DNA of 63,685 bases from a virus. The stretch lies in IMG/VR virus record IMGVR_UViG_3300047360_000121, positions 1 to 63,685 of that record. The stretch is one strand, 5' to 3'. Below the pieces are notes generated by a model that searched no databases, had not been told where the DNA came from, and saw nothing but the letters and a program-made list of their open reading frames with translations. Of this stretch, positions 45,926 through 63,685 are shown in pieces. Made by a program: the position numbers and the translations under genes. Every line of letters begins with the position of its first letter. Positions within the stretch are counted from its first letter, which is position 1.

Positions 45926-48001
45926 TCAGTCCTTGATGAAGTGGGTGGTGATGTGCCCGGCGGAACCGAGCGGCAGGCCGGGTGCCCAGACAGGCACCTC
46001 CTCCATGCATTGAATGAGGACCGGCAGCTTGGCCGCAGCGTCCTCCTCGCGAATGAGCGGGGTGATCTGATCGTGGACGTGGAGTCGAATGTCCAGACCT
46101 TCCTTCTTCGCCAGCTTCATGCCGTGAACCAGCAGGTCGCGGCTGATCGCTTGGTCGGCGTTCTCCACGATCTTGCCCGGCGTGGTGTGGGTCCGCACCC
46201 ATTGCTTCTTGTCGTTCAGGCCCTCGTAGGTGAGCGACTGGCGCATCTCGCCCCACGGCGTCTCGCGCTCCTCCAATTTCGGGCGCAGGTAGTGCAGTGG
46301 GCGTCCCGAGGGCAGGATCATACGCATGAAGGGGCCTTTGATGTCGAACCGGACGTAGCCCTCCTCCTGCGGCTTGCCGGTCCTGACGCACCGCTTGGCG
46401 GCTTTCTCAAGGGCGTACCAGTAGGACTTCACCTCCTTGAACTCGCGACGGAAGGTGTCGATCGAGTGCTGCGCGTCCTCCTGCGTGAACTGCTTGACGC
46501 CCATGCCCCACGCATAGCCCAGCAGGCCGGTCGCCTCGATCTCGCCCGTCTGGTGGTTCACCCGCTGCTGCCCCGCGCCCATGCCGTAGCCCGCGCCGAG
46601 CGTTCCGGGTTTGCCGATCGACCGCTTCGCGCCGTTCCCGAGCACCTTGTATTCGTGCCAGAGGTCTTCGTAGGGCTGATCGTAGAGGTAGGCCGCGAAG
46701 GCGAGATAGGGGTCGCGCTTCAGCTTGAACACGTCGAGGATTTTGTCGCAGTTGGCGAGCCAGCCGAGCACCCTGTTCTCGATCGCGTTCAGGTCGGCGT
46801 CCAGAAAGGTGAAGCCTTCGGGGGCCTGCGCCGCCGGGCGCAACGCCGAGGCGAGCACGTCGAAGGGGTTGCCGTGAACCATGCGCAGGGCTTCGAGATC
46901 GAGGTGTTCGATCGCCCGCGCGATTTGCGGCTGCATCGGCTCAAACCGCTTCTCGGGCCGGGGAAGGTTCTGCGGCTGGAAGATGCGCCCAGCGTATCGC
47001 CCTGTGCGGGCCGCGCCGTTCATCTGAAGCACGTTCCGCAGCAGGCCGTCGTCGTCGGTCGCCCGGTCGAGGGCGTAGTATTTCTTGATCGAGGTGCGCG
47101 AGGTTTCGGCGCGCAGTTCCAGCACCCGGTAGAGGTCGCGCTCCTCCTCGGGATGCGCCGCGCCGTCCATGATGCGGTTCCCGATGTCCGCGAGCGCCTG
47201 CGTGATGTGGCCCTTCTTCATGTCCTCGTAGGGGTAGCCCTGTTCGCGCAGCCACGGGAGAAGCTGCTTCACCGAGTTCGGGTTCGCGAGGCCGGTGATG
47301 TCGGCCATCTCGTCCAGCGCCTCGGCGAGCGCCTGTTCGTAGATGCGCAGCGCGTTCGTCACCATGGCCCGGTTGATCGGAAGCCCGGCCCGGTTGATCT
47401 CCTGATCGAGAAACCAGAGGTCCCATTCGTCGGCGCTCATGTCGAACTTGCGCAGGCGGCGGTAGATCGCGCGCTCGGATTCCACGTCCGATCGGTTATA
47501 GGCGAGGTAGTCGCACCAGTCGTCGGGGTCGTCATACCAGAACACCCGCGTCGCGGGGTTGTTCTTCGACGGCTTTCGGGGGAACGAGAACTTCCGCATC
47601 AGGGCCTTGCCCCGGCGGTCCTTCTGCTGATCCATCGGCAGGCCGATGACCTCACCGGCCTTGCCCAGCGACCCCGGCAGCGAGCAATGCAGCGCCAGAA
47701 CCATCGTGTCGCGCCACTGGCGAATGTCCACCGGCAGCCCGAGGGTGTGCTCGATGATCTGCATCTCAAAGGGCGCGTTCCATGCCCACTTGATGACCTC
47801 GGGATCGACCAGCGCCTCGGACAGTTCAGCCGTCAGCGGCTCACCCTCGGCGTGGGCAAGCTGCTGGATCGGCGCGTCGTTGAAGGCGAAGGCGGTCATC
47901 AACGCCTCGGTCGAGGTGTGCCGCGCATAGACGGACGACCCGGTGTCCTTCAGGTTCATCTCGGAAAACGTCTCGAAGTCGATATGCAGGCGGTCGGGCA
48001 T
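45926..48001 (-). CDS. DNA polymerase I family (PolA) with 3'-5' exonuclease
   Basis: This 691-residue family A polymerase replicates the phage genome. The exonuclease part has IDFETFSE, WNAPFEMQI and YNRSDVESE (residues 7-190). Polymerase motif A is DADLNAIENRV. Motif B is AKRSIGKPGTLGAGYG, in which the position equivalent to E. coli 762 is Leu. Motif C is VHDQ rather than the usual VHDE. No 5'-3' exonuclease domain is present, as is normal for phages. It is one base from the 48001 gene. Confidence 0.94.
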   Translation of the reverse strand: MPDRLHIDFETFSEMNLKDTGSSVYARHTSTEALMTAFAFNDAPIQQLAHAEGEPLTAELSEALVDPEVIKWAWNAPFEMQIIEHTLGLPVDIRQWRDTMVLALHCSLPGSLGKAGEVIGLPMDQQKDRRGKALMRKFSFPRKPSKNNPATRVFWYDDPDDWCDYLAYNRSDVESERAIYRRLRKFDMSADEWDLWFLDQEINRAGLPINRAMVTNALRIYEQALAEALDEMADITGLANPNSVKQLLPWLREQGYPYEDMKKGHITQALADIGNRIMDGAAHPEEERDLYRVLELRAETSRTSIKKYYALDRATDDDGLLRNVLQMNGAARTGRYAGRIFQPQNLPRPEKRFEPMQPQIARAIEHLDLEALRMVHGNPFDVLASALRPAAQAPEGFTFLDADLNAIENRVLGWLANCDKILDVFKLKRDPYLAFAAYLYDQPYEDLWHEYKVLGNGAKRSIGKPGTLGAGYGMGAGQQRVNHQTGEIEATGLLGYAWGMGVKQFTQEDAQHSIDTFRREFKEVKSYWYALEKAAKRCVRTGKPQEEGYVRFDIKGPFMRMILPSGRPLHYLRPKLEERETPWGEMRQSLTYEGLNDKKQWVRTHTTPGKIVENADQAISRDLLVHGMKLAKKEGLDIRLHVHDQITPLIREEDAAAKLPVLIQCMEEVPVWAPGLPLGSAGHITTHFIKD

Positions 48002-48303
48002 CAGGCGTCTCTCAGCAGGGCGGCGATCGCCTCATTGTATTCACGCTCGGCGGCGCGCTCGGCCTCGTCACGGGCAACGCGCAGGGCGAACGCTGCGGCG
48101 CAGAAACGCTCGGCTTCCTCTCGGGTGTCGAACGCGGCCATGACGCGGGCGATCATCACGGCCTTCACGCGGCTGCGGCCCCCGCCAGTCAGCACTTGGA
48201 CGCGGCGCGGCGTGACACCCACGACCTCGATCGGGTGCGGGTTCGCATACTGCGGAAGGAGGGGGTGGCGCAGGACGGCCCACTGGCCGGTCTTGGGGAT
48301 CAT
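48001..48303 (-). CDS. Unknown small protein
   Basis: This 100-residue protein starts at ATG 48303 behind AGAGGACTCCTGAC, the repeated leader. The N-terminal half has strands (IEVVGVTPRRVQVLTGG, KAVMIARVMAAF), and the second half is one long helix rich in Ala, Glu and Arg. No family name. It lies between the ssDNA-binding protein and the polymerase. Confidence 0.7.
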   Translation of the reverse strand: MIPKTGQWAVLRHPLLPQYANPHPIEVVGVTPRRVQVLTGGGRSRVKAVMIARVMAAFDTREEAERFCAAAFALRVARDEAERAAEREYNEAIAALLRDA

Positions 48304-48326
48304 GTCAGGAGTCCTCTCGTGGTGGC

Positions 48327-48350
48327 GGGGGCTGCCCGTGAACAGCCCCC
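48327..48350 (-). terminator. Intercistronic hairpin
   Basis: GGGGGCTG and CAGCCCCC form an 8-bp stem around an 8-base loop, between the ssDNA-binding protein gene and the 48303 start. There is no T run. It probably helps set relative expression of the abundant upstream product. Confidence 0.5.
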
Positions 48351-48359
48351 TATGATGTA

Positions 48360-49043
48360 TCAGATCATGTCGTCGTCATCATCCTCCTCGTCATCGCTGA
48401 AGTCGCCGCCGATCGACCCCTCGGTCCCGGCCATATCGTCATCGAACTCCTCGTCAACGTCGATCGAGGTGCCGCCGAACGGCTCACCGTCGCGGAAGAA
48501 CTGGACCGCCTTGACCTGCGCGTTCAGGCGCTTGCCGTGCTTGTTGTCCTGCGCCCAGATCACGAGCACCGCGTTCACGTAGCAACCCGAGTAGGGGGCG
48601 TTCTTGCCGCCGCCCTCGGCCTCGATCCACTTGCCGTTGCCGTCCTTGCGGTTAGTAATGACGGACGGGCGCTCGTTCAGTTGGGCGTTGGCCGAAGCGT
48701 AGTGGTTCCCGGCGTAACCGTCCCAATTCTCCTGATCGCCGTCGCGGAAGAACTTCCGGTCGTCCTTGATCTTGGGCCACTTGTCGGGATCGTCGCCCCA
48801 CTTTTTCGCCTTGGCCTCGTCGCCCGCCGCCTTGATCGCCTTCAGGATGGGCATCTTCTTGCCCTTGAAGACGCCCTGCATCTCCTTCGCGTCTTCCTTG
48901 GGAATCAGGAAGTTCGCGCCCCACGTCTCGCGGATCGTGCCGTCGTCGTTCTCGGAACGATTCGGCTCGTACAGCTTCTCGAAGGAGAGGCGCACGTTGA
49001 GCAGGGTGACTTTGCCGATGATGTCTGCTTTGGCCTTCGCCAT
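48360..49043 (-). CDS. Single-stranded DNA-binding protein (DUF2815 type)
   Basis: This 227-residue protein matches DUF2815, the phage ssDNA-binding proteins encoded next to PolA-type polymerases: KVTLLNVRLSFEKLYEP at the start, ANFLIPKEDAKEM, and YSGCYVNAVLVIWAQDN followed by GKRLNAQVKAVQFFRDGE. It coats ssDNA at forks. The last 25 residues are strongly acidic and end DDDDDMI. This parallels the acidic tip of bacterial SSB that recruits partners and is the model for the tails on other proteins here. Confidence 0.88.
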   Translation of the reverse strand: MAKAKADIIGKVTLLNVRLSFEKLYEPNRSENDDGTIRETWGANFLIPKEDAKEMQGVFKGKKMPILKAIKAAGDEAKAKKWGDDPDKWPKIKDDRKFFRDGDQENWDGYAGNHYASANAQLNERPSVITNRKDGNGKWIEAEGGGKNAPYSGCYVNAVLVIWAQDNKHGKRLNAQVKAVQFFRDGEPFGGTSIDVDEEFDDDMAGTEGSIGGDFSDDEEDDDDDMI

Positions 49044-49052
49044 GGTAGTCTC

Positions 49053-50333
49053 CTAGATTACGTCGTCTTCGTCAGGTGCGTCCGGCAGGTCCGACAGGGC
49101 ATCCCGTATCGGCTCACCCGGATCAGTTTCAGGGACGAGGATCGGCCTCGCTTCCCCCATCTGCACATACCGGGCGTAGACTTCCCGGTACTGCTTCTTC
49201 CCGACCAGCTTCTCAAGCTGCGGCGGGGAGATCAGAGCGCGCGGCAGGTATGCCTCGTCACCCAGATTCTTCTTCAGGATCACCTCGGCGCGCACGGGGT
49301 CGGTGAAGGCGCGCTTGCCGCGCCGTCCGGCGACCATCTTCATGCCGGGCACCTCGCGGCCCATCTCGGCGTCCTTGTAGGCTTCCTCCTGAAGCTGCTT
49401 CAGGTACTTCTCGATGGTGCCCTTGGACAAGAGCACCTGCGACCGCTGTTCGGGCGTCATGGCCCGGCGCAGCGTGGGTTCCTCGCCGACCATGAACTCG
49501 GTTTCGAGGTCATCGAACTCCAAGCCCATGAGGTCGGTCAACCAGCGGGCGCGGGCCTCGCAGGTATTGTAGCGCGCCGCCGGGCAGAAGTTGCATTGCT
49601 TCTCGCCGGGCACGAAGGGCGCATCGGGGTCTTCGGTCAGCGCGGCGTCCTCGCGAATGCGACGGCCCTCGCGCAACAGGTGCCCCATGGTCGTCACCCA
49701 CGTTCCGCCACCGCCGGGCGCGCGGGGTTGCTCGATCATCACCTGAACCTTGATGTCCTCGGCCCAAGAGGCGTTCCGGTCGGGGTCGATCCCCCGGCGA
49801 CGCGCTTCCTCGGCGAACATATCGCGGGCGATGTCGGACCACGTTCCGAGCGCATAGAGGATCGCTTGATCGTTCTCCTCGGGATGGACCGGGACGCCCT
49901 GCCCGTATTTCCAGTCGAAGACGGTGATCGTCCAGTTCGCGGGGTCGAGCAGCGCGGCGTCGGTCGTGCCGAACTCGCCTTCGCCGACCCATTCGGCAAG
50001 GCTCACGCGCTTCTCGACAAGAAGGGTGGTGGTGTCCGTCTCCATGGCCCACAGCAGGTCCAGACCGGCCAGCATGTTGTCGGCCATCTCGTGATCGAAC
50101 TCAAGCCAGCCGAAGCCCTCGACCTCCATCCCGTCACCGACGAAGCCGTGCGGCTCAAGCCCCATTTCGAGGCAGTCGGCGGCGAAGTCGTGGAAGACGG
50201 TGCCATAGGCAGCTTCGATGCCAGCGGTATTCGGGTGGCCTGCCGACGCCCGAACCGAAGCCGGGCATTTCCGCCAGCGGTGGGCCGTGGAAGGCCCACG
50301 CTTCGAGTGCGCAATCTCGTCGGTGTCGGACAT
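49053..50333 (-). CDS. RecB/Cas4-like PDDEXK nuclease (DUF2800)
   Basis: This 426-residue protein fits DUF2800, a PDDEXK exonuclease group in phage replication modules: a start with STAHRWRKCPASVRAS, then GTVFHDFAADCLE, the active-site block GTTDAALL...VFDWKYGQG (Asp and D.K), and NDQAILYALG. A cysteine cluster (CNFCPAARYNTC) may hold an iron-sulphur cluster or zinc. It likely processes DNA ends for recombination. It ends APDEDDVI, the shared tail. ATG 50333 is chosen at the protein-like boundary; the ribosome-binding site is weak (GGAAC). Confidence 0.85.
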   Translation of the reverse strand: MSDTDEIAHSKRGPSTAHRWRKCPASVRASAGHPNTAGIEAAYGTVFHDFAADCLEMGLEPHGFVGDGMEVEGFGWLEFDHEMADNMLAGLDLLWAMETDTTTLLVEKRVSLAEWVGEGEFGTTDAALLDPANWTITVFDWKYGQGVPVHPEENDQAILYALGTWSDIARDMFAEEARRRGIDPDRNASWAEDIKVQVMIEQPRAPGGGGTWVTTMGHLLREGRRIREDAALTEDPDAPFVPGEKQCNFCPAARYNTCEARARWLTDLMGLEFDDLETEFMVGEEPTLRRAMTPEQRSQVLLSKGTIEKYLKQLQEEAYKDAEMGREVPGMKMVAGRRGKRAFTDPVRAEVILKKNLGDEAYLPRALISPPQLEKLVGKKQYREVYARYVQMGEARPILVPETDPGEPIRDALSDLPDAPDEDDVI

Positions 50334-50364
50334 GAGGTTCAGTTCCGTGTCAGGGAGAAGGGAA

Positions 50365-50397
50365 CCCCCGGCGGAAGGGAGGAGAATCCGCCGGGGG
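50365..50397 (-). terminator. 11-bp intercistronic hairpin
   Basis: CCCCCGGCGGA (50365-50375) pairs perfectly with TCCGCCGGGGG (50387-50397) in the gap between the 50404 gene and the DUF2800 nuclease. It is a strong RNA hairpin without a long T run; partial terminator or processing site. Confidence 0.6.
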
Positions 50398-50403
50398 CTG
50401 GGC

Positions 50404-50595
50404 TTAACGAGCCGTATAGACCGAGCAGCCCCGCCGACGCTCGATCTTCGGGTCGTCCACCTTGTCGGCGAAACCCATGTTCCGCAGTTTGGCCCCAACG
50501 ACGTGCGGAAGCAAGACCTCCGCGCCGCCAGCAGCGCGAAGGCTGTTCAGCGCGGTCTTTTGGGTGTGGGTCAGTTGGTCTTCGAGATTACCCAT
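50404..50595 (-). CDS. Small possible DNA-binding protein
   Basis: This 63-residue protein is basic and helical (LTHTQKTALNSLRAAGG), then AKLRNMGFADKVDDPKIERRRG. It could be a small winged-helix or HTH fragment. No family is recognised. It lies between the 50664 coiled-coil gene and the nuclease in the same transcript. Confidence 0.65.
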   Translation of the reverse strand: MGNLEDQLTHTQKTALNSLRAAGGAEVLLPHVVGAKLRNMGFADKVDDPKIERRRGCSVYTAR

Positions 50596-51665: not shown

Positions 51666-54395
51666 ATGAAGACGAGCAGAATCAACGGCGCGAAGATGGT
51701 CCGTTTCTCCCAAGGAGACGGATCGAACTTCGGCAAAGTGCGCGACAAGACTGAAACGCTGGACGACTTCTATTCGCTGTTCCACGACGCGATGAACACC
51801 GGAGAGACGTTCCGGCAGTTCAACAAGATGTCGGACCTTCAGCAGCGTGACAAGAAGGCAATGCGCGGATTCTGGTTCCGCGCCCACACGGGGGGCAAGC
51901 GGCGGAACCGATCATCGGCGCTGCCGTCCGACTTCATCACCCTCGATTTCGACTATGTGACGGTCGAGTTCTTCAAGGCCGTATATAAGAACACCCTCGG
52001 CATCCCCTTCGAGTACGCCGTCCACACCTCGCGGCGGCACACACCGGACGACCCGCGCTTCCGGGTCATCATCCCGGTCAGCGTCGGCGTGGATAACGAC
52101 GCCTACCCGGCGGTGAGCCGCATCTTGGCCTCGCAGTTCGACCCGACCATGAAGCTGCCTGACCCGGTGTCCTTCCGGTCGGCGCAGATGATGTTCCTGC
52201 CGACGCGGTGCTCGGACGGCAAATACCATTTCGTCGTCCACGAGGGTGAACTCGCCGATCCGAACGAGGTGCTGGACACCTTCGAGATGACGGTCGGCGA
52301 CTGGCGCGACATCACGCTCCTGCCGAAAGCGCCCGACGAGAAGCTGCGCCAGACCGCCGAGAAGGCCGAAGACCCGACCGAGAAGGTCGGCCCGGTCGGC
52401 AACTTCTGCCGCGCCTACAGCGTCGAGGACGCGATCGACAAGTTCCTGCCCGATGTCTATGCCCCGGTGGACCTGCCGAGCGCCAAGCCGCGCTACTCGT
52501 ACCTCGGGGGCACCACGGTCAACGGGGCCGAGGTGCAGGACGACGGCCTGTTCCTCTATTCCCACCACGGGTCCGACCCGTGCTCGGACATGCTCGTCAA
52601 CGCCTTCGATCTCGTGCGCATCCACAAGTTCGCCGACGAGGACAAGGGCTTCGACGCCGAGGGCAAGAAGGCGAACGAATACCCCTCCTACAAGGCCATG
52701 GTCGAGTTCATCAAGGACGACGACGCCTATCGCAAACAGGTTGTCGCGTCGAACTACGACACGAACGAGATGTTCGATGACCTGTGGGATGAGGATGAGA
52801 TCGAGATCGAGGACGACGAGATCGACTCCATGGTGGGAACGGTGCCTGAACCCGTCGATCGCGACGAGGACGATGAGGACGACGAGGACGACCCGAGCGA
52901 ACTGGTGGGCGACGTGCCGGCGAAAGAGTTGGGCCGGGCGATCCTGAAGCCGCTCAAGCCGAAGAAGCGGCCCAAGCCCGAGGAGGGCTGGGTGGCGACG
53001 CTGGAAGCCGACCGGGCGGGCAAGGTGATCCCCAATATCGCCAACATCACGCGCATTCTGACCTGCGACCCGCGCTTCCGCGACAGCATCGCGTTCAACG
53101 AGTTCCACGCCCGCGCCGTCTGCCGCGTCCCGTTGCGCACGAAGCTGGACTGGATCACGCCGCCGCCGATCGCCGACAAGGAGAACGGCGACCCGTGGCA
53201 GGATTACCACGAGAACAACGTGCGCGTGGTGCTCGAAAGCGAGGCCGGGACCGGCAAGAAGGGCTGGGGCATGAAGGTGTCCGACCGCGACCTCACCGGG
53301 GCCGTGGACCTCGCCGCGCGCATGAACAGCTTCCACCCGGTCAGGGACCGGCTTGAGTCCTTCGATTGGGACAAGAACACCCGGCTCGATCGGCTCTTTA
53401 TCGACTACCTCGGCTGCCCCGACACGCCCTACTACCGTGAGGCCGCGCGCAAGTTCCTGATCGCCGCCGTGGCGCGGGTCTATGAGCCGGGGCACAAGTT
53501 CGACTACGTGCCGACGCTGTGGGGCGCGCAGGGCAAGCGCAAGTCCACCTTCATCAACGTGCTCGCGCTCGGCTGGGCCGGGGAACTGAAGGCCAACTTC
53601 TCGGACGAAAAGGCCATGGTGGAGCAGATGATGGGCTGCCTCATCATGGAACTGCCGGAACTCTCCGCTGTGGGCCGCTCGGCGGTCGAGGACATGAAAG
53701 CCTTCATCTCGGGCACCGAGACGAACGTGCGCCTCGCCTACCGGCGCAACGCTCAGGTCTTCAAGCGCCAGTGCGTCTTCATGGGGTCCACGAACAACAA
53801 GGACTTCCTGCGGGACCAGACCGGCAACCGGCGCTTTTGGCCGATCGAGGTCGTCGTGGACAGCATTGAAACCGACCGGCTCGCGCGAGCCATGCCGCAG
53901 ATTTGGGCCGAGGCCGTGGCCGCATACCGGGCCATGCGCGCCGTCCAGCCGCACGGGATGCTCCCGCTGCACCTTACGTCGTTTGAGGCCCAGCAGGAGG
54001 CCGAGGAACTGCAAGCCGGTAGCCTGCGCGAGAACGACGCCGACATGGTGGCCGCGATCCTCGCCGATAAACTGAACTCGAAGGTCCGCGTCGGCGACGA
54101 CTTTGACGAGGCCCAAGGCGGCGCGACCTACGAGTGGCCGAAGCGTGTCTTCGCCCACAAGATCGCGACCGAATGGCTCGACGGCGTGAAGGTCACGGGG
54201 CAGATGTCGCAGGTCGTCGCGGAAGCCCTCAACAAGCTGGGCTGGGTCAAGTCGGGGGCGCGCGAGCGGGTCACTATCAACGGTGAGCGGACGAAGAACC
54301 CGGTGCGCTCCTACGTTCCGGGGCCGGACCAAATCGCAGTTTGGGAACAACTGGACGAGGCGGAAAAGAGCAACGTGGTCGAGTTCAGGAAGTAG
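51666..54395 (+). CDS. Primase/VapE-type replicative helicase with unusual Walker A
   Basis: This is about 909 residues from ATG 51666; a GTG at 51612 would add 18 hydrophobic residues and is less likely. The N-terminal 200 residues look like a primase-type domain (YAVHTSRRHTPDDPRFRVII). A long acidic stretch follows (about 375-415). The C-terminal half is a virulence-associated E-type SF3-like helicase: Walker A region GAQGKRKST (about residue 619), Walker B CLIMELPELSA, sensor FMGSTN, arginine finger DQTGNRRFW. It probably starts and drives phage replication. The usual Gly before Lys in Walker A is Arg. A strong terminator follows. Confidence 0.88.
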   Translation: MKTSRINGAKMVRFSQGDGSNFGKVRDKTETLDDFYSLFHDAMNTGETFRQFNKMSDLQQRDKKAMRGFWFRAHTGGKRRNRSSALPSDFITLDFDYVTVEFFKAVYKNTLGIPFEYAVHTSRRHTPDDPRFRVIIPVSVGVDNDAYPAVSRILASQFDPTMKLPDPVSFRSAQMMFLPTRCSDGKYHFVVHEGELADPNEVLDTFEMTVGDWRDITLLPKAPDEKLRQTAEKAEDPTEKVGPVGNFCRAYSVEDAIDKFLPDVYAPVDLPSAKPRYSYLGGTTVNGAEVQDDGLFLYSHHGSDPCSDMLVNAFDLVRIHKFADEDKGFDAEGKKANEYPSYKAMVEFIKDDDAYRKQVVASNYDTNEMFDDLWDEDEIEIEDDEIDSMVGTVPEPVDRDEDDEDDEDDPSELVGDVPAKELGRAILKPLKPKKRPKPEEGWVATLEADRAGKVIPNIANITRILTCDPRFRDSIAFNEFHARAVCRVPLRTKLDWITPPPIADKENGDPWQDYHENNVRVVLESEAGTGKKGWGMKVSDRDLTGAVDLAARMNSFHPVRDRLESFDWDKNTRLDRLFIDYLGCPDTPYYREAARKFLIAAVARVYEPGHKFDYVPTLWGAQGKRKSTFINVLALGWAGELKANFSDEKAMVEQMMGCLIMELPELSAVGRSAVEDMKAFISGTETNVRLAYRRNAQVFKRQCVFMGSTNNKDFLRDQTGNRRFWPIEVVVDSIETDRLARAMPQIWAEAVAAYRAMRAVQPHGMLPLHLTSFEAQQEAEELQAGSLRENDADMVAAILADKLNSKVRVGDDFDEAQGGATYEWPKRVFAHKIATEWLDGVKVTGQMSQVVAEALNKLGWVKSGARERVTINGERTKNPVRSYVPGPDQIAVWEQLDEAEKSNVVEFRK

Positions 54396-54398
54396 AAC

Positions 54399-54817
54399 CC
54401 GGCACAGATCGAAGCGAGGAGCAACGGCGACCCGTGTGGGTCGCCGTTGTCGTTTTTGCCCCCTGAACTTTTCAGTTTGGTTCAGTCCGTGGTTCAGCGC
54501 GAGCATGACCGAAAATCTCGAAAAATGGCTCGAATCTGTGCCGGGGTGGCACAGACCCCGGCACACCCCGGCACAGCCTTATGAATAAGGGTTTTGAGGC
54601 CCTTTCGAGCCGGAAGCTGTGCCGGTGTGCCGGGCATTTCCAACTTAGCAAGCCGCGCACCGCTCCCGACGATAGTTCACCCGTTAAACTATCTATTTTC
54701 CCCTCCTCTTGTTTAAGTTCCATTACCCCGACACACCCGACACACCCGGCACAAAGGTAGCAGAAACAAGGGGTTAGGCTGTGCCGGGGTAAAACGACCC
54801 GGCACACCCCCGGCACA
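54399..54817. repeat. Iteron-like array of CCGGCACA (10 copies, both orientations)
   Basis: The 8-mer CCGGCACA occurs at 54399, 54558, 54568, 54746, 54799 and 54810, and its complement TGTGCCGG at 54537, 54618, 54626 and 54780. Several pairs are 8-11 bases apart. The array lies directly after the primase/helicase gene in a non-coding stretch, as replication iterons often do. The same stretch is also dense in CTGAA/TTCAG. Confidence 0.75.
54422..54457 (+). terminator. Strong rho-independent terminator
   Basis: CAACGGCGACCC (54422-54433), loop GTGT, GGGTCGCCGTTG (54438-54449): a 12-bp perfect stem followed by TCGTTTTT. It ends the 51.3-54.4 kb unit and insulates the repeat-rich region beyond. 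Confidence 0.9.
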
Positions 54818-55137
54818 GACTGAACTGCGCTCACTGAACTGTTTCAGTCGTTTGGGCCAAGCCCCCGCCGGATCGAGTTCAGGATTTCAGGAGGGGCCAG
54901 TTCAGGGGGTCGCCCCGCGCCCGCCGGATCGTCGCCGAGGCCGGAATATCGGCTTTCCCGAGATCACGATCGCCCACCACTGAACGACTAAACTGAAAAA
55001 ATATCCGATAAACGCTCAGAGTTTAGAAAAACTTCGGACATCCGCGCTCAGCGCCACCCCCCGGACGGTCCCACGACCCCCGGAGGACCCGAGCGACCAA
55101 ACTTCGTTCGGTCGTTTAGTAGTTTAGTATAGTGATG

Positions 55138-55230
55138 CACGCATATACATATATCCATATATCTTGGTATCCGAATGTATTGATACTTGCATATGCTAGT
55201 ATCCGCATATCTTGATACGTGGATATGTAA
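55138..55230. other. AT-rich phased ATAT segment (possible unwinding element)
   Basis: In a GC-rich genome this stretch is built from ATAT, TATCC and TTGATAC steps spaced about ten bases apart. It has repeated ATATCTTG (55159, 55207), GTATCCG (two copies), TTGATAC (two copies) and the palindrome GCATATGC. It resembles a DNA unwinding or bent-DNA element. No credible protein is encoded. Confidence 0.55.
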
Positions 55231-55452
55231 GACCTAGTGCCGCGATGCAGCGCCGATCTACGCCGCAGCGCGGCGGCTGACTGGTGGCACCTCATGCCCT
55301 GCCGCGTGTCGCCCTTCAGCCCGTCGCGCCGCGTTCCGTTGGATTCGCTAATGCTGCCGCACGGGCTTGCGCCGGGCCGGATTGCCCCATGCCGATCGGG
55401 CCGGACGCTTGCCGCCAGAACCGGGCACGGCAGCCCGTGCAAATATAAGCCG

Positions 55453-55481
55453 TTGTCTTGTGTTAAATTGCACCTTACCTA
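55453..55481 (+). promoter_or_regulatory. Possible promoter for the 55556 gene
   Basis: TTGTCT (55453-55458), 17 bases, TACCTA (55476-55481). It lies 75 bases before the only nearby plus-strand gene. The -10 box is weak, and there is no spacer motif like the other promoters. Confidence 0.35.
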
Positions 55482-55555
55482 GTAGAGCACGGGCCGCGCC
55501 TATGGGCGGGCCGCTTTCCGGGCCGCACGGCTCTACTGACACGAGGACTCAACCT

Positions 55556-55864
55556 ATGACCAAACCTGTTTCCATCCGGGGGACTCGCTACCCTTCCGCC
55601 ACGGCTGCCGCGCGCGCCCTTGGCGTCACGCCGCAGACCGTTTGCAATGCGCGCAAGATCGGCACGTTGGACAACGTAGGGCAGGGCAGGGAAGCCCTTG
55701 CCGCCCATACACGAGGAACGGGCCGCGCTAACAAGCCGGTGACGTTGGGTGGGGTAGAGCACGAGTCGCACAAGGCGGCAGCGGCAGCCCTTGGAGTCCA
55801 TCCTTCCGACATAGGGGGATACCTGCGGACGCTTGCCGCCCTAGGGCGCGCGGCAGGGAAGTAG
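55556..55864 (+). CDS. Two NUMOD-like DNA-binding repeats without a nuclease
   Basis: This 102-residue protein starts at ATG 55556 behind ACGAGGAC. It has two copies of one helix-turn-helix-type unit: YPSATAAARALGVTPQTVCN (residues 12-31) and EHESHKAAAAALGVHPSDIG. The units resemble the NUMOD repeats that follow GIY-YIG or HNH domains in homing endonucleases, but no nuclease domain is present. It may be a small DNA-binding protein or the remnant of a homing enzyme. It is followed by the duplicated palindrome. Confidence 0.7.
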   Translation: MTKPVSIRGTRYPSATAAARALGVTPQTVCNARKIGTLDNVGQGREALAAHTRGTGRANKPVTLGGVEHESHKAAAAALGVHPSDIGGYLRTLAALGRAAGK

Positions 55865-55876
55865 GGGCCTCTATCC

Positions 55877-55986
55877 CCCCGGACATGCGAAGGGCCGCCC
55901 TAGGGCGGCCCTCTATCGTTCTGGCGGGGTAGCAGGCCCCGGACATGCGAAGGGCCGCCCTAGGGCGGCCCTCTATCGTTCTGGCG
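55877..55986. repeat. Tandem 60-bp duplication with 22-bp palindromes
   Basis: The 50-base block 55877-55926 recurs at 55937-55986, exactly 60 bases on. Each copy contains AGGGCCGCCCTAGGGCGGCC(CT), a perfect 22-bp palindrome, flanked by the same sequence on both sides. It separates the plus-strand NUMOD-like gene from the convergent minus-strand cassette, so it probably acts as a doubled bidirectional terminator, although T runs are lacking. Confidence 0.85.
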
Positions 55987-56181
55987 CTAAAGCCTGTCGT
56001 CTGGTCCGGGCCGCGCCCAAGTCACGAGGATATAGAAGGCCCCGCCGATCAATAACCAATGTGCGCCGCGCCATGCCGCCACGAGGCCGCAGGCGGCAAG
56101 CCCTAGGCGCGCGGCCCACGTTAGCAGGTGAAATAGCGCGACATGCCGCGCCATGCGCTTTTGACGGTCTAGGGCGTTCAC
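55987..56181 (-). CDS. Small membrane protein
   Basis: This 64-residue protein has two hydrophobic helices (VALFHLLTWAARLGLAACGLVAA and WLLIGGAFYILVTWA) and a basic N-terminus. The GTG start at 56181 overlaps the upstream stop as GTGA, so it is coupled. It is the last gene of the minus-strand cassette, ending next to the duplicated palindrome. Function unknown; it could act at the membrane in exclusion or lysis control. Confidence 0.65.
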   Translation of the reverse strand: MNALDRQKRMARHVALFHLLTWAARLGLAACGLVAAWRGAHWLLIGGAFYILVTWARPGPDDRL

Positions 56182-56441
56182 GACAGGACTCCATTCACAA
56201 TGCGGGAAAGCGCGGCGTCTAGGGATAGGGCATAGGCCAGCCCTTCGCACGGTTCGCCCATATCGCGAAAGTTTGCGCGCGTCTGGCGGATTGCCCTTTC
56301 AGTAGCGTTGAACCGGCCCGATACGGGAAAGAGCGCGGATTCATCTTGGGCGCGAAAGGCCCGATTTATTGCGACCGTATTAGTGCGGCCCTGAAACGGT
56401 TCGGCCCGATCGGCGATTTGTTCAGCCGTGAGTCGTTCCAT
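56178..56441 (-). CDS. Unknown small protein
   Basis: This 87-residue soluble, helical protein (LTAEQIADRAEPFQG, AINRAFRAQDESALF, ERAIRQTRANFRDMG) has no family I recognise. It shares one base with the 56441 gene and overlaps the next gene by GTGA. Part of the small-gene cassette with lower GC. Confidence 0.68.
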   Translation of the reverse strand: MERLTAEQIADRAEPFQGRTNTVAINRAFRAQDESALFPVSGRFNATERAIRQTRANFRDMGEPCEGLAYALSLDAALSRIVNGVLS

Positions 56442-63108: not shown

Positions 63109-63685
63109 ATGAGCGACTTCGACACCCCGATCTCCGAGCAAATCTGGGACATGAAATACCGCCTCAAGAGCGGTAACAACGGTCCGATCGACGTGACCGT
63201 GGGCGATACTTGGCGGCGCATCGCCGGGGCGCTGGCTGACGGCGAGAACCTGACCCGGCGCGACTACTACCGGAAAGAGTTTCTGGCCGTGCTGGAAGAT
63301 GGGCACTTCGTCCCGGCTGGCCGGATCATCGCTGGCGCGGGCACCGGGCGGCGCGTGACCCTCTCCAACTGCTTCACCATGGGCACGATCCCCGATGACC
63401 TCGGCGGCATCTTCGACATGCTGAAGGAGGCGGCGCTGACCATGCAGCAGGGCGGCGGCATCGGCTACGACTTCAGCCCGATCCGGCCCAAGGGTGCCCC
63501 GGTGAAGGGCGTGGACTCCGACGCCAGCGGCCCGTTGTCCTTCATGGACGTATGGGATGCCATGTGCCGCACCATCATGTCTGCCGGGTCCCGGCGCGGC
63601 GCGATGATGGCGACCATGCGGGACGATCACCCCGACATCATGGACTTCATCACGGCCAAGAAAGACCCGAACCGGCTGCGCATGT
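63109..63685 (+). CDS. nrdJ: Class II ribonucleotide reductase, 5' part
   Basis: The N-terminal 192 residues of the reductase run off the end of the window and continue at position 316 after the overlap. ATG 63109 lies behind GAAGGACAG. The part contains SEQIWDMKYRLKSGN, an effector-region stretch, GRIIAGAGTGRRVTLSNCFTMG with the first redox Cys, and GGGIGYDFSPIRPKG. With 1-2474 it gives about 911 residues. Confidence 0.95.
   Translation, partial: MSDFDTPISEQIWDMKYRLKSGNNGPIDVTVGDTWRRIAGALADGENLTRRDYYRKEFLAVLEDGHFVPAGRIIAGAGTGRRVTLSNCFTMGTIPDDLGGIFDMLKEAALTMQQGGGIGYDFSPIRPKGAPVKGVDSDASGPLSFMDVWDAMCRTIMSAGSRRGAMMATMRDDHPDIMDFITAKKDPNRLRM
63371..63685. repeat. Terminal overlap, right copy (matches 1-315)
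   Basis: See 1-315. The 127 identical bases are 63559-63685. The substitutions upstream of this run indicate that two variants of the phage contributed to the two ends. Confidence 0.9.

Follow-up and report, generated by a model that had tools for sequence, protein, structure and literature searches.

A probable iteron-type replication origin directly downstream of the VapE-type primase-helicase gene of a tailed phage

In a virus record of 63,685 bases, which we analysed as a whole and refer to as the window, ten exact copies of the 8-bp word CCGGCACA lie clustered beside the gene for a VapE-type primase-helicase, and, as far as sequence comparison can tell, this cluster is very probably where copying of the phage DNA starts. 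A first-pass annotation made from the letters alone had proposed an origin with iterons at this place, and our comparison of related viruses lends support to that proposal because arrays occur at the same place in relatives, because array and protein tail change together, and because the protein is homologous to the self-loading helicase PriRep1. The positions of the features are given in Table 1.

Table 1. Features in and around the iteron array of the window
Feature	Position	Strand	Basis or remark
VapE-type primase-helicase, proposed replication initiator, 909 aa	51666..54395	+	PF05272 E 1.4e-70; phrog_256 DNA helicase E 2.8e-195
Codons of C-terminal winged helix (~residues 790-885), proposed iteron reader	54033..54320	+	AF2 model
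Other replication genes: DNA polymerase, Gp2.5-like ssDNA-binding protein, exonuclease-family protein	45929..50498	-	PHROGs
First six words, all CCGGCACA	54399..54633		54399(+), 54537(-), 54558(+), 54568(+), 54618(-), 54626(-); exact word scan
Last six words	54728..54817		CCGACACA 54728(+), 54737(+); CCGGCACA 54746(+), 54780(-), 54799(+), 54810(+); exact word scan
Terminator-like hairpin of VapE gene	54421..54450	+	Between first and second word; consensus match and T run
Core element CCTTATGAATAAGGGTTTT	54577..54595	+	3 mismatches from CCATATAAATAAGGGGTTT
94-bp segment between sixth and seventh word	54634..54727	.	52% AT vs 35.5% in record; candidate melting site
Most AT-rich stretch of record	55115..55235	.	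66% AT, imperfect repeats; possible further origin part

A recount bore out the ten exact copies, in both orientations and within the 419 bases from 54399 to 54817, that had been annotated, with six on the plus and four on the minus strand. Searched on both strands, the whole record contains 12 exact copies of CCGGCACA, of which ten are inside the array, compared with a mean of 3.71 (sd 1.78, largest 9) in 100 dinucleotide shuffles. The annotation had named equal density of the 8-mer elsewhere as one observation that would speak against an origin, and the record holds no such rival: CCGGCACA is its densest 8-mer, the overlapping CCCGGCAC has nine copies, and no separate 8-mer of the record comes near ten copies per stretch of the length of the array. 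The next separate dense word, CGCCCTAG, has seven copies from 55837 and is part of a duplicated stretch (55837-55985), which carries CCGCCCTAGGGCGG palindromes and is the densest word cluster of the record after the array. The only two copies of CCGACACA in the record (54728 and 54737) are both in the array, which brings the iteron-like words to 12 in total. If they are counted, the words form two sets of six around 54634-54727, whereas exact words alone are divided by their largest gap into one and nine; the two-set split is thus a matter of how words are counted. The first copy of CCGGCACA follows directly 3' of the gene, the stop codon of which ends at 54395. The annotated position of the array, after the gene and its terminator, holds for nearly all words but not for the copy at 54399, which precedes the hairpin at 54421-54450. 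Separately, we note that GTTCAG/CTGAAC occurs nine times in 54383-54985, compared with 106 occurrences in the whole record, which places it 17th among 6-mers in local density, and is possibly a second type of site.

The segment between the sixth and seventh words is AT-richer than the record as a whole, and one of the 12 separate 60-bp windows of lowest GC content in the record is that at 54668. Further, the array contains a relative of CCATATAAATAAGGGGTTT, an element found among the iterons of phages with differing words and present in exact form in L004, L012, L021, L027, and L028. Allowing up to five mismatches, CCATATAAATAAGGGGTTT had 13 matches in 22.8 kb downstream of the gene versus one in 268.8 kb elsewhere (27 loci), an enrichment that is partly by construction because the consensus was derived from some of the same loci; a CCATATAAATAAGGGGTTT-like element was present in 10 of the 27 loci examined. 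Our guess is that this core element is a melting or priming site. The detrended cumulative GC skew, which the annotation had suggested as a check, has its maximum for the record at 54,634, inside the array. Bacterial origins are usually found at the minimum of the cumulative GC skew. The check is thus ambiguous, as the extreme falls where an origin was proposed but has the sign usual for a terminus.

The record is that of a whole virus. Its last 307 bases (63379-63685) repeat bases 9-315 at 97%, as an imperfect overlap inside a ribonucleotide reductase gene that spans the record ends, and because of this terminal repeat and the gene across the ends, the genome is probably circularly permuted and complete. 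The structural genes include terminase, portal, and tape measure. DNA similarity to 45.0-63.7 kb was found in only 10 phage records, those of Synechococcus virus S-ESS1 and of Ruegeria phages, all Casjensviridae; S-ESS1 is also the best protein match.

The 909-amino acid product of the gene is homologous to PriRep1, which we take to be a SaPI-type self-loading helicase. When a 21-sequence profile of relatives was compared with the PDB by hmmsearch, 7PDS (PriRep1 with dsDNA) was returned with an E value of 5.2e-91 and was the sole PDB sequence at E ≤0.01. An AF2 model of the whole protein (pLDDT 80) matched 7PDS with VIA Z 32.0 over model residues 440-886 (409 aligned, rmsd 3.3), and residues 9-219 matched an AEP primase-polymerase (PrimPol) with a modest Z of 8.8. 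Modelled alone, the last 127 residues (783-909) adopt a winged helix fold (pLDDT 85.7), for which the best structural matches were 7PDS (Z 7.9) and then MarR-type winged helices and regulators (Z ~6). Judged from the model, these middling Z values indicate a common fold rather than a function. We infer that the winged helix reads the iterons from the joint change of tail and array in relatives and from shared NPV tails, both described below. As separate observations, many of the VapE relatives in alignment A2 have C termini reading DDLI, DDLL, or NDLL, perhaps a partner-binding peptide, and the VapE proteins of the Ruegeria phages V16 and DSS3-P1 have PSIDDLLGG repeated in an acidic linker.

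The window protein alone, used as the query, returned no confirmed relative in viral_contigs, but an alignment of four proteins did find relatives. One search saw 562 relatives, 80 of which were kept. We inspected 29 regions downstream of such genes, one from the window, six from named phages, and 22 from contigs. In 21 of them, some 7-mer was clustered more tightly than in all 60 shuffles, and four of these 21 are from near-identical Ruegeria phages. The words are private to the relatives, for example ATCGGAC in V16, GGAACAC in DSS3-P1, CGGTAGA in L011, and CGGTAAA in L012. In a larger set of 103 non-redundant relatives, obtained by reducing 147 loci at 90% identity, the 600 bp after the gene were significantly repeat-clustered in 68 (0 of 100 shuffles as clustered), whereas the same test was positive in 5 of 97 regions upstream, in 2 of 101 and 1 of 103 regions within the gene itself, and in 1 of 79 far downstream. 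Omitted before clustering were L005-L009 (other regions, or near copies of L004), L024, L026, L029 (contig shared with L059), L030 and L036 (S-ESS1 and V16 again), L040 (no stop), and, their contigs being already included, L031, L032, L034, L035, L038, L039, L042, L043, L046, and L050. The downstream test failed in 35 of the 103 clusters, in 29 of which more than 5 of 100 shuffles were as clustered. In L004, L015, and L020, the array is farther from the gene, and some other relatives have no array within the stretch searched. Eight loci with tails like GWKSYDGRLRFGKTYGTQRAFVR (L143, L145, L147-L149, L151, L166, and L168) have no 8-mer occurring more than three times in the 450 bp downstream, and relatives with such tails may have their origin elsewhere.

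The arrays share some traits across differing words. Where the commonest 7-mer occurred at least six times in 1 kb (75 clusters), it ended in ACA in 33, the top ending when either strand is read and ties are counted, with no shuffle control; in 55 of the 103 clusters, some single NNNNACA word occurred five times or more, 29 such words being represented (likewise with no shuffle control). The commonest close spacings in 64 arrays were 9 and 12 bases. The largest gap was AT-richer than the locus in 58 of the 64, which is a weak indication as intergenic DNA is often AT-rich, and just 32 of the 64 had at least two copies on either side of that gap. We also note that in L016, farther than 780 bp past the VapE gene, CCTGACCG is repeated 22 times head to tail and that, separately, the downstream word GGTTCCA occurs six times. 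The 22-copy word of L016 and a 10-copy word of L055 form head-to-tail tandem repeats beyond 600 bp and are perhaps not iterons; both were included in the survey of ACA endings and excluded from the 600-bp test, where L016 is represented by its six GGTTCCA copies.

Pairs of relatives, none of them close kin of the window phage, suggest what the arrays answer to. V16 and DSS3-P1 have many genes with almost the same product, being identical in 221 of 222 residues of TerS, 694 of 694 of TerL, and 410 of 411 of the integrase. Their VapE proteins share 347 of the first 350 residues but only 142 of 436 aligned over amino acids 493-940 of V16, so that the primase half is common while helicase, tail, and iterons differ; at the DNA level, homology ends inside the VapE gene and picks up again past the array. 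A finer exchange is seen in 22 Clostridioides-type loci with three tails and three iterons. These are the loci, out of 51 found with L058 as the query (one named match, Clostridioides phage phiCDKH02), that have one of three exact 26-residue tails; their selection was based on the tail and not on the iteron. Tail A was accompanied by TGTCAACA only in 8 of 9 loci, tail B by TGGTAACA only in 6 of 6, and tail C by TGTCTACA only in 7 of 7. The 22 loci represent 17 distinct protein-plus-array combinations and, compared with L118, show 0-33 differences outside the last 27 residues and 0, 10, or 12 within them. The exception to tail A, L121, has a hybrid array in the 450 bp after its VapE gene, four TGTCAACA and then three TGTCTACA, which arose either by recombination inside the array or as an artefact of assembly. 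Across 59 loci with distinct tails, tail identity correlated with iteron distance, given body identity, with a partial rank correlation of -0.178, compared with a null of mean -0.003, sd 0.047, and minimum -0.137 (300 permutations, with the tree ignored). The effect is modest. Residues 790-839 alone gave -0.071 (a bare coefficient, with no null run), and in the 55-75% bin of body identity tail identity was no different across iteron distances 0-3. Overall, these sequences suggest that related viruses swap iteron words along with the protein segment that apparently reads them.

The word of the window is also used elsewhere. A scan by DNA alone for two neighbouring CCGGCACA copies found at least 80 loci (at least 120 stretches), and among the matches listed were 13 dense arrays (at least four copies within 500 bp). 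Two of these 13, in L174 and L204, are directly 3' of a VapE relative, and in both the tail contains NPV, as do the tails of the window protein and of L010, the word of which is likewise CGGCACA. None of the 103 clusters other than those of the window and L010 has NPV in the last 90 residues, and we add that NPV was spotted only once all four tails were in view. In L174, the iterons are GC-rich in AT-rich surroundings. The other 11 of the 13 dense arrays listed (L242 and L244 being one contig) have no VapE relative by profile; the array of L213 overlaps an integrase ORF, and that of L245 has a D5_N ORF nearby. The seven CCGGCACA copies of L219 (1035-1285) directly follow a D5-type helicase gene (D5_N, DUF5906, Pox_D5) without NPV, which indicates that use of the word extends beyond VapE proteins and is possibly convergent.

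We considered three other roles for the array. As 18 of the 25 loci measured (L010-L037, including S-ESS1 and V16) stop no more than 1.2 kb past the VapE gene, and the records of S-ESS1, V16, and DSS3-P1 end in the intergenic region after it, a physical genome end may be near (or assemblies break at the arrays), and the repeats could be packaging sites bound by terminase, of cos or pac type. However, in V16 and DSS3-P1, which are relatives of the window phage, the repeats are not conserved despite the conserved terminase, and in the Clostridioides-type loci the word changes with the VapE tail. We regard a packaging site as very unlikely, and as the least probable of the three.

Alternatively, the words could serve, instead of an origin, as operators for transcriptional control by the VapE protein or by a small HTH regulator. 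Winged helices are also transcription-factor folds, and a Cro/CI-type gene precedes the primase in S-ESS1, but the array is 3' of the gene with nearly all of its words past the terminator, few relatives have significant clustering upstream of the gene, and no sigma-70-like promoter was found in 54300-56200, although this is a weak test outside enteric bacteria. We give this explanation a very small probability, and a marginally larger one to an incompatibility or accessory replication site for the same protein with initiation elsewhere. The sign of the GC skew is unfit for a simple origin, and P4 has a second iteron site, crr, apart from its ori. Against an accessory role, the word has no second cluster, and both AT-richer DNA and the shared core element are within the array.

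Overall, we consider it highly likely that 54399-54817 is an origin core at which the VapE protein binds CCGGCACA, loads a helicase, melts the DNA, and primes the phage polymerase. In the sequence of steps that we infer, the C-terminal winged helix of the primase-helicase would bind the CCGGCACA iterons, the protein would load one or more helicase rings at the array, AT-richer DNA in or beside the array would be opened, and the N-terminal AEP-like primase domain would make primers for the phage's own polymerase, with initiation at the array. This reading assigns a definite candidate origin to a phage from the Casjensviridae-like group and gives indications that tailed phages, too, use an origin layout that has been described as specific to phage-inducible islands. 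Tentatively, the VapE-type phages could form one large replicon family in which a short C-terminal wing reads an NNNNACA-like iteron and the wing and all iterons switch in concert around a constant core element, giving private origins that avoid cross-replication or theft by co-infecting phages and satellites. The tail-iteron pairs, some of which are 10-12 residues and one or two bases per copy apart, make the evolution of initiator specificity testable by small swaps, and through them the origins and compatibility of many unstudied phages could become predictable from sequence.

Several known systems invite comparison. The alpha protein of P4 is a fused primase-helicase with a P4-type primase domain and C-terminal DNA binding, and its 8-bp iterons, of the GGTGAACA type, end in ACA and form a second cluster, crr, away from ori. 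By this general description, the window resembles P4 in its fused primase-helicase and ACA-ending 8-bp iterons but differs in the type of primase and in having no second CCGGCACA cluster, the other two of the 12 copies being single. A search of a limited article collection gave, among the matches listed, none with the word "iteron". Streptococcus thermophilus phage Sfi21 has a phage-encoded resistance element, noncoding and origin-like, that acts against incoming phage through copy number (PMC6356513), and the array may be likened to it as noncoding, origin-like DNA belonging to the replication module of a phage. SCCmec Cch2 behaves like a SaPI Rep in vitro, the C-terminal domain of this helicase binding direct repeats 3' of the operon, at a putative origin (PMC7581432), as we propose for the window. 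That system, however, has three iterons, AAGTG, and its polymerase-type primase is separate, whereas the window has twelve words of 8 bp and an AEP-like domain fused to the helicase. Closest is the SaPI/PICI replicon, in which a self-loading helicase gene is followed immediately 3' by an origin (PMC7581432; PMC6092414), the iterons of which are recognised by the C-terminal domain of the Rep helicase. The window shares with it an initiator homologous to PriRep1, the closest solved structure, and repeats directly 3' of the gene. Origins of the SaPI/PICI type also have AT-rich DNA between two sets of iterons, an arrangement to which the window array corresponds when CCGACACA is counted but not by the 1 + 9 division of its exact words. 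A PICI is a satellite dependent on the structural genes of a helper, whereas the 63.7-kb record belongs to a tailed phage with its own terminase, portal, tape measure, and polymerase, and, also unlike SaPI/PICI, its core element is common to phages with different iterons. Because the homologous gene, its place, the iterons, and the AT-richer DNA are found together with the phage's own structural and replication genes, the array would work like a SaPI/PICI origin without being a PICI, and the best reading is a SaPI/PICI-like iteron origin serving a tailed phage.
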